Positions 54,753 through 56,986 of a stretch of 64,000 bases of DNA are shown here, piece after piece. This stretch comes from Actinomycetales bacterium (GTDB lineage: Bacteria > Actinomycetota > Actinomycetes > S36-B12 > UBA5976), in contig JAIXQF010000001.1 of NCBI GenBank assembly GCA_027484085.1, positions 130,742-194,741 of the forward strand, in the 5' to 3' direction. A model generated the notes under the pieces. That model was not told where the DNA came from. It saw nothing but the letters and a program-made list of their open reading frames with translations, and did no database searches. Position 1 is the stretch's first letter. Each line of letters starts with the position of its first letter. The translations under genes were made by a program, and so were the position numbers.

Positions 54753-54825
54753 TTTAACAGCTTCAGGTTATCTACAATCTCGCTGAACTTCAGAAAGTTT
54801 GCTATGGAATTCAGCAATATGCACC

Positions 54826-55446
54826 ATGTCAATATTGAAGCAACTAGTTTTCACGCCCAAGTGCCTGATTTGTCAACGACTCGGTGTTGAGTTTTGTTTG
54901 TCGTGTATTGAGAAGGTAAGACCATTCAGAGCGAGTGACCTTTCTGAAATTGAGGCCGGCTTTTGTGCTGGTGAGTATTCGGGCTGGCTACGAGATTGCA
55001 TCATTAGCTACAAGAATGGTGAAGCTAAATACGCTGCCTTACTTTCTCAACTTTTGAGCATGACTCTTGAAAAGCTTGCGTCGTCTCCGAATCTAACTTT
55101 GATCCCAATCCCAAGTTCTCAGCAAAAGATTAAAGAGCGAGGTTTTGATTCGGTGGCCAATCTTTGTGCGAAGTTACCGATTGTCAGCAAAGGTGTTCGG
55201 CTAGACACCTCAAATCTTTATCTGCGGCGCGCAGTTGCGGATCAAGTTGGCTTAAGCGCAGCGCAGCGTCAAGTAAATCTTGCTGGTGCCTTTGGGGTTC
55301 GCAGAGTTGTAAGTGGAACAGTGGTGGTGATTGACGACGTGATAACAACAGGGGCGACAATCAATAGCGCGGCAAAGGCACTCAAATTCGCAGGCGCACA
55401 ACGAGTACTGGCACTGGCTTTGTGTGGCACTCCCAGAATCCGATAA
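54826..55446 (+). CDS. ComF-family phosphoribosyltransferase-like protein
   Basis: 206 residues. CLIC and CLSC near the N terminus form a four-cysteine zinc finger, and VVVIDDVITTGATI is the phosphoribosyltransferase loop near 165-178. Homologues take part in DNA uptake or processing of incoming strands, though the exact reaction is unknown. It is the last gene of the mtrAB-lpqB unit. The start is not certain: ATG 54826 is chosen, with a TTG at 54799 as option; both lack good ribosome sites. TACAAT at 54773-54778 may be its own -10. In relatives hpf (raiA) follows comF, but here it is missing. Confidence 0.85.
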   Translation: MSILKQLVFTPKCLICQRLGVEFCLSCIEKVRPFRASDLSEIEAGFCAGEYSGWLRDCIISYKNGEAKYAALLSQLLSMTLEKLASSPNLTLIPIPSSQQKIKERGFDSVANLCAKLPIVSKGVRLDTSNLYLRRAVADQVGLSAAQRQVNLAGAFGVRRVVSGTVVVIDDVITTGATINSAAKALKFAGAQRVLALALCGTPRIR

Positions 55447-55449
55447 CCT
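55444..55449 (+). promoter_or_regulatory. -10 element TAACCT upstream of the structured RNA
   Basis: TAACCT uses the comF stop codon as its first half. With six bases after it the predicted start is G55456, the first G of the long closing stem. TTGTGT at about 55420 would be an acceptable -35 at 18 bases. Confidence 0.5.
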
Positions 55450-55455
55450 CTTGAT

Positions 55456-55718
55456 GGCACCCACCCGGGTCCGTGATTGCGTTGCAAAGCAGTTCTTCGA
55501 AGTTGTTTTGCAACAAGCCGATGCCAGCCGCAGGCAAAGCGGTCCACGTAAGACGACTCTTGGTCGTTGAGCACGGTGCGGTTTAGAAGTAAGTCCTGCC
55601 TGTTCTTTGATCCAGATGGTCAAAATCAACAGCGAGGGTTAGTAGTAGCGATTGACGCTGCGGAAGCTCCAGCAGGCGAATGTGGGGTCGAAAATCAGGT
55701 CGGACGGGTGGGTGTCAT
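55456..55718 (+). ncRNA. Structured RNA candidate, possibly raiA-motif RNA
   Basis: The 337-base gap after comF carries no convincing gene but a nested fold. Closing stem: 55454-55467 pairs with 55705-55718, and 55470-55473 with 55701-55704. Its one non-Watson-Crick pair is G-U on the plus strand but A-C on the minus, so the RNA is read from the plus strand. Inside: 55481-55488/55507-55514, 55528-55531/55539-55542, 55553-55557/55563-55567, and a junction 55595-55599/55672-55676 enclosing two hairpins (55600-55610/55620-55632 and 55647-55650/55656-55659). raiA-motif RNAs of actinobacteria and Firmicutes lie by raiA (hpf), which usually follows comF; the place fits, though hpf is absent. Family assignment is from position and complexity, not from a consensus match. 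Confidence 0.5.
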
Positions 55719-55783
55719 TTTCTTACTCCCTTGTTCATCTGCATTCCCGCGCCCACTAAGTTGGTGCATGTTGGGAGTCCTAC

Positions 55784-56986
55784 ATGACACAGAGTCAAAG
55801 TATTGAAAAGCAAGATTTTGTAATCAAAGCACTCCCGTTATTTTTTGTTGCAATGACACTTCGGCCACTAACTACTTCAGTTGGTCCGGTGCTTCCCGAA
55901 ATTCGAGAAGATTTTGGCTTATCGGCTACCGCCGGCTCGCTATTGAGCACACTACCTATTTTGATGTTTGGTCTCGGCGCATTATTTGTTCCGCGCCTAC
56001 TGCATCGCATTAGCCCTAACAAAGCAATTTCATTAAGTCTGCTGGCACTTGCAGTTGGTGGCCACCTTCGCTTACTTCCATTTGTAGTAGTCCTTTATCT
56101 AGGAACCATAATCATCGGGCTGGGTGTTGCAGTTGGCAACGTCGTCCCGTCATTGATAACGCGAAGGGATTTCCCAACTCGAATTGGTGGCGTAATGGGC
56201 ATGATTGCAGGAGCAATTTCGCTCTCTGCCGCTGTTGCGGCGCTGGTAACTTATCCGATTGCGAATCGACTTGGTTCGTGGCGGGAAGCGCTTGAATTGT
56301 GGGCGTTATTACCACTAATCGTTTTTATCATCTGGCAGTTTTATAGACATTCAAAGAGTAATGACGTTCGACTAGATACTCCTCACAACATGAAGGCATT
56401 GCTTCGAAATCCTTTGGCCTGGAGTTTGACTCTGTACTTCGGTTTCCAATCAATAAATTTTCATTCAATGAACACCTGGCTACCTACTATCTTGCGCGAG
56501 GCTGGTACTGATCCAGTTACTGCCGGAAATCAGTTAGCGCTATTAGTTCTCATTGGGTTACCAACCGGATTGTTTGTGCCACCTCTAGCTGCCCGACTCG
56601 CTTCGCAGGTGGTTCTCTGCGTTGGCTTCGTGGTGGTGTTTGCGATCGGCCTGATTGGAATTTATAGCTTTGCAATTTACGGATTATGGCCTGCTGCCAC
56701 TTGGCTCTGGGTTTTTCTGCTTGGGGTAGGGCTTGGCTCGTCATTTCCGCTCGCCTTAACTTTGGTGCTACTGCGTTCTGATACTCCAGAGACTTCGAGA
56801 GATCTAGGTTCATTTATGCAGGGTGGGGGATACGTAATTTCAGCGTTAGGACCATTGACCATGGGATTCTTGCGCGATGTTACAAATTCTTGGTCAGCAG
56901 CGTTCTTTGCTTTAGGTTTCGCGCTGTTAGTGCAACTCATTTCTGGGGTAATAATCTCGCGGCCAGTTTTAATTACTGAGCGCTAA
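55784..56986 (+). CDS. MFS transporter, CynX/NimT type
   Basis: 400 residues with twelve predicted helices. LFFVAMTLRPLTTSVGPVLPEI is the family's typical first helix with its Arg-Pro turn, and the inter-half loop is near 190-205. Members export cyanate-like ions, nitroimidazoles or other small anions; the substrate is unknown. ATG 55784 has GGGAGT upstream. The structured RNA ends about 65 bases before it, so cis control of this gene is an alternative reading of that RNA. Confidence 0.85.
   Translation: MTQSQSIEKQDFVIKALPLFFVAMTLRPLTTSVGPVLPEIREDFGLSATAGSLLSTLPILMFGLGALFVPRLLHRISPNKAISLSLLALAVGGHLRLLPFVVVLYLGTIIIGLGVAVGNVVPSLITRRDFPTRIGGVMGMIAGAISLSAAVAALVTYPIANRLGSWREALELWALLPLIVFIIWQFYRHSKSNDVRLDTPHNMKALLRNPLAWSLTLYFGFQSINFHSMNTWLPTILREAGTDPVTAGNQLALLVLIGLPTGLFVPPLAARLASQVVLCVGFVVVFAIGLIGIYSFAIYGLWPAATWLWVFLLGVGLGSSFPLALTLVLLRSDTPETSRDLGSFMQGGGYVISALGPLTMGFLRDVTNSWSAAFFALGFALLVQLISGVIISRPVLITER

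Follow-up and report, generated by a model that had tools for sequence, protein, structure and literature searches.

What is encoded in the gap behind comF, at the place where relatives of this bacterium carry hpf, and what could it be doing once hpf is gone? In the window (the whole stretch of 64,000 nucleotides analysed here, from an Actinomycetales genome) comF occupies positions 54799-55446 of the plus strand, and an open reading frame for an MFS transporter (55784-56986, plus strand) stands in the slot of the relatives' hpf, a gene of ribosome hibernation. The initial annotation pointed out a highly structured stretch between the two genes and suggested that it is a raiA motif or, failing that, an undescribed structured RNA. 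The raiA motif, also called ModT, is known from over 2,500 species; in C. difficile its abundance rivals that of ribosomal RNA, and its structure has been solved. The check that was proposed, a search with the Rfam models (cmscan), identifies positions 55460-55712 of the plus strand as a match to the full RF03072 (raiA/ModT) model (1-209) with a score of 148.9 bits (E 5e-37), where the gathering score (GA) of the family is 101.3 bits. It is the single copy in the genome, and the stretch behind comF gives no match above cut-off to any other Rfam family. This stretch is a genuine member of the widespread structured RNA family, as had been guessed.

The plus strand folds with a minimum free energy of -108.9 kcal/mol compared to -90.1 +/- 5.3 kcal/mol for shuffled sequences (z -3.56, with 0 of 200 shuffles as low), whereas the fold of the minus strand of the same stretch is weaker (z -2.13), in agreement with the plus-strand RNA that was first proposed. 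The closing helix of 18 pairs was also seen correctly (55454-55473 with 55701-55718, including a 2-nt bulge), and its only wobble, G55457-U55715, is indeed a G-U pair on the plus strand. This helix continues the P1 of Rfam outward; 18 of the 19 loci examined have such additional outer pairs, 4-7 in number, and with the extension the RNA covers 55454-55718. The nested fold originally drawn holds for the closing helix and for its hairpins, the minimum free energy structure having six hairpin loops, while its inner branching is right only in part: in the family fold a pseudoknot, pk-1, takes the place of part of the nested core. We follow the family fold here, not the nested core; in it the P3 loop forms the 7-bp pk-1.

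Following the RNA on the plus strand from its 5' side, P2 (55481-55514) is a hairpin which is inserted relative to the Rfam consensus and supported by covariation. The P3b stem (55523-55535) carries the 7-nt loop AGCCGCA, and positions 55526-55532 make up the 5' half of pk-1. The P5/P6 junction (55574-55583) holds the 5' half of a second pseudoknot, pk-2 (C55574 and G55575), together with the 3' half of pk-1 (55577-55583); P6 (55595-55599 with 55672-55676, spanning 55595-55676) encloses P7 (55600-55632) and P8 (55636-55669). Both pseudoknots have been described in the cryo-EM structure of raiA (PMC11751092). Among 41 aligned sequences the seven pairs of pk-1, one of them G-U, are formed in 99.7% of the cells, and outside one congener, G019, the P3 loop is nearly invariant (AGCCGCA or AGTCGCA, with one AGCCGCG). 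The two pairs of pk-2 between the junction and J4-1c, C55574-G55690 and G55575-C55689 in a register which is our own match to the numbering of the cryo-EM paper (PMC11751092), are C-G and G-C in all 41 sequences; the first of them is U and A in the Rfam consensus and thus a double change in this clade. The P2 insert and a P1 longer than the consensus might be taken as signs of a different, undescribed structured RNA behind comF. With a full-length match to RF03072 47 bits above the curated cut-off and both cryo-EM pseudoknots in place, this fallback of the initial annotation is refuted and can be given next to no weight. The reading as raiA/ModT is kept in the following.

Covariation among homologous regions had been named as a further check. 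The 41 RNAs from the genus and the order were aligned on sequence only (MAFFT), and the structure tested was the Rfam structure projected on the window, supplemented with P3a/P3b, P2 and both pseudoknots of the cryo-EM paper (PMC11751092). Standard pairs make up 95.7% of the pair cells. Changes on both sides are found at 33 of 61 pairs, P1 included, a number reached by 0 of 500 shuffles and to be compared with 12-17 in slid controls, and the covariation score is 0.336 versus 0.146 in shuffles and 0.04-0.083 with the 3' partners slid; because the structure was partly derived from the window sequence itself, these controls lend support and should not be read as formal probabilities. The two-sided changes are located in P1, P2, P5, P6, P7 and P8. 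All seven outer pairs of P2 change on both sides (95.7% of the cells paired), and P6, P7 and P8, which also change on both sides, are paired in 100%, 82.8%, and 95.7% and 91.5% of the cells, respectively. Since P3a and P3b hardly vary, a single such pair is seen in the former and none in the latter.

Within the genus the identity to the window RNA is 77-98%, compared to 45-76% just before the RNA and 26-43% over the 70 bases after it; in the nearest eight genomes the RNA is 94-98% identical between flanks that are randomised. It could be argued that one or more short protein-coding genes are responsible, since open reading frames exist on both strands, for instance a frame of 79 codons at 55567-55806. 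The length of the RNA varies between 248 and 258 nt in the genus by differences that are not multiples of three, and across the RNA stretch no frame was found that stays free of stops throughout the genus, that is, the conserved short frames that would have spoken against the RNA are not seen. We give a coding explanation hardly any credence. With the RNA conserved over its flanks and no frame kept open, the stretch is maintained as RNA.

The initial annotation also noted the sequence TAACCT (55444-55449, plus strand), which overlaps the comF stop and resembles a -10 element; a TANNNT is found at the same distance, 16-18 nt upstream of P1, in 19 of 19 loci checked. A weak -35-like TTGTGT (55420-55425) lies 18 nt upstream of TAACCT within comF codons, to which it could owe its conservation, and a scan with the sigma-70 consensus found no full promoter. 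We suggest that the RNA has a promoter of its own, located at the comF end; both its expression and a start near 55456 are predictions from the sequence. At the other end three congeners (G002, G008 and G022) have a long hairpin behind the RNA, accompanied by a short T-run in all but G002. The comF gene itself is found in 19 other genomes of the genus with 37-72% identity (tblastn), and it evolves faster than the MFS gene in the near clade; in 10 other congeners this MFS gene is the next one behind the RNA, with 71-93% identity. Stop codons inside or beside the comF match were seen in G005, G007, G009, G015 and G019.

The observation that hpf is gone from its slot turned out to be true for the whole genome (1.80 Mb in 12 contigs, 98.4% complete): neither Ribosomal_S30AE (PF02482) nor PF16321 was matched there, while both models match in control genomes. 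Among the 23 genomes of the genus surveyed, the RNA is present in 19, hpf in 6 and both in 5, and in all these five hpf lies directly behind the RNA. The other 14 RNA-positive genomes give no match to hpf; several of them are incomplete assemblies, yet in each of the 14 the contig continues beyond the RNA on its downstream side without a match to hpf, so the usual slot is without hpf. Three genomes (G001, G012 and G017) have no RNA, hpf, comF or close mtrA ortholog; because mtrA is missing too, their assemblies probably lack the region, and they were left out of the count of losses. Parsimony on a tree of MtrA, MtrB, LpqB and YyaL requires at least three losses of hpf. The loss in G002 is well supported, with hpf still present in its sisters G008 and G022 (support 100/99), and G020 and G011 are weakly placed in the tree. 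G002 and G003 share a convergent gene, which in G003 comes after hpf and in G002 directly after the RNA, with no hpf in between. This gene of about 420 codons (L074 3112-4398, L061 2657-3919) presumably encodes a DNA-binding protein of YcaQ type with a winged helix. In most other members of the bacterium's family which have hpf without the RNA, the gap between comF and hpf is too short to hold it, and no remnant of the RNA is to be expected in them.

For the phylum an even sample of 246 genomes was used, and the lists of RNA and hpf matches were compared by hand. The RNA was found in 88 genomes, 82 of which carry hpf; the six without are G000, G276, G315, G330, G338 and G359. RNA without hpf is a minority pattern which recurs in the phylum. 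The RNA is commoner among hpf carriers (82/215 versus 6/31; Fisher p 0.046, uncorrected for relatedness), which leaves room for some functional link with hpf. It can be added that in family f59 all four sampled genomes with the RNA (G276, G315, G330 and G338) give no hpf match, a second group of this kind.

As the RNA occupies the same slot as hpf, it might have worked together with HPF and now be a decaying relic in the lineages which lost the gene, and one congener, G019, shows that the RNA can decay. A relic should accumulate substitutions at the same rate as its flanks, and the identities given above, not least those of the nearest eight genomes, run against this. The genomes without hpf keep full-length RNAs with pk-1 and pk-2 intact, and the only genome with a broken RNA is G019, which carries hpf, the opposite of what would be predicted. 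We consider a relic very improbable and continue with an RNA which is still in use.

The genome of G019 is 97% complete and gives no match to RF03072. Between its comF and hpf there is an element of 101 nt (L077 5031-4931, minus strand) which folds at z -3.05. Its P1 is long and uninterrupted, one hairpin resembles P2, and a GCC/GGC stem with a 7-nt loop resembles P3. The part that would match P4-P8 is gone, together with both pseudoknot partners, and the loop has diverged to GGTCAGT, as expected when the partner of pk-1 is lost. The element may be a relic or a small version that still functions; in either case it is a natural deletion of the half that holds the pseudoknot partners and can be contrasted with the other RNAs. 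In the same genome mtrA stands directly before comF (G019:C3 54054-55406), and mtrB and lpqB, which lie between mtrA and comF in the window and in other congeners, were not found in this stretch.

How might the RNA work? In C. difficile ModT is abundant, stable and trans-acting, a deletion is complemented in trans, and the deletion leads to later entry into stationary phase and to altered sporulation through c-di-GMP (PMC11706538). The RNAs of C. acetobutylicum and C. difficile share with the one described here the full model, P1, P3 with a 7-nt loop, pk-1 of seven pairs, pk-2 and P5-P8. The actinobacterial form differs in its large P2 insert, its outward-extended P1 and the first pair of pk-2 (C-G, not the U-A of the Rfam consensus), and its host has neither hpf nor a detectable GGDEF protein. 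By the synteny figures cited in PMC11706538, the gene most often found upstream in the family is comF (comFC; 74%), as in the window, and raiA/hpf lies downstream in 66%; such neighbours are common without being a requirement for membership. The paper concludes that synteny is a poor guide (PMC11706538), and the missing hpf does not count against membership because C. difficile, too, lacks adjacency to raiA (PMC11706538). The raiA RNAs of closer relatives in the order (for example G048, G055 and G051) agree with it in sequence, structure and upstream neighbour, and there hpf, lost here, follows the RNA. OLE, ROOL and GOLLD are likewise conserved ornate non-coding RNAs of unclear activity; they are different families forming multimers, whereas raiA is a monomer (PMC12286853), and they have no match in the stretch (Rfam cmscan).

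We propose that the RNA would fold into the known compact monomer, with P1 as closing helix, pk-1 from the P3 loop to the P5/P6 junction, and pk-2, and that it would act in trans in a housekeeping-like manner in the control of growth phase or growth transitions. By analogy with the clostridial work it would be abundant and stable. Its persistence with conservation and covariation in a genome devoid of hpf supports the independent, trans-acting role suggested by the initial annotation, and it fits with the complementation in C. difficile (PMC11706538). The RNA could instead be a riboswitch or leader acting in cis on the downstream gene, as the Rfam type label of RF03072 ('Cis-reg; riboswitch') suggests: it lies 71 nt before the start codon of the co-directional MFS gene, which follows directly in the clade of the window, and it precedes hpf in five congeners. 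A cis-acting riboswitch should have a constant co-directional gene downstream. What is found is a varying gene, hpf or MFS, and in G002 and G011 a convergent one, which is not led by the RNA; in G002, G008 and G022 a hairpin lies between the RNA and the gene after it, and complementation in trans has been published (PMC11706538). The cis reading is disfavoured and in our view very improbable. That the stretch is a raiA/ModT RNA which acts in trans, whatever its biochemical activity, we hold with good confidence. As to this activity, the RNA may be a protein-binding scaffold, a ligand-sensing trans regulator or a ribozyme. A trans regulator binding a protein or a ligand and tied to the translation machinery appears the most likely, with about an even chance of being right; an RNA-processing ribozyme is rather unlikely.

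The c-di-GMP route can be examined in the same genomes. No GGDEF protein (PF00990) was matched in the window's genome or in 19 other genomes of the genus, including the whole close clade; G002, G008 and G022 have one each, the only ones in the genus. The route known from C. difficile is therefore unlikely here and unlikely to be the conserved one. Since the RNA is strongly constrained in small-genome actinobacteria without hpf and detectable GGDEF proteins, we lean slightly towards a core function of raiA/ModT that is independent of both HPF and c-di-GMP, with at least one lineage (G019) having a miniaturised P1-P2-P3 RNA. If this is true, the phenotypes seen in clostridia would be secondary to a more fundamental role of the RNA, which may lie in translation or in RNA metabolism during growth transitions. 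The family, its structure and its action in trans are already published. The repeated loss of hpf with the RNA kept, the RNA kept without GGDEF proteins and the shortened copy in G019 were not found in the small part of the literature searched. With hpf lost several times next to an intact RNA and GGDEF proteins missing from most of its genomes, the genus eliminates two candidate partners and allows natural comparisons by which the actual one may be found; the context helps to narrow down what the RNA can be doing.

A raiA-like match was also seen in Nonomuraea gerenzanensis (L183 3001-3199, corresponding to NZ_LT559118.1 2030894-2031092), 78.5% identical over 72% of the query. The record NZ_LT559118.1 is titled 'plasmid I', and its size of 11.85 Mb suggests a chromosome.
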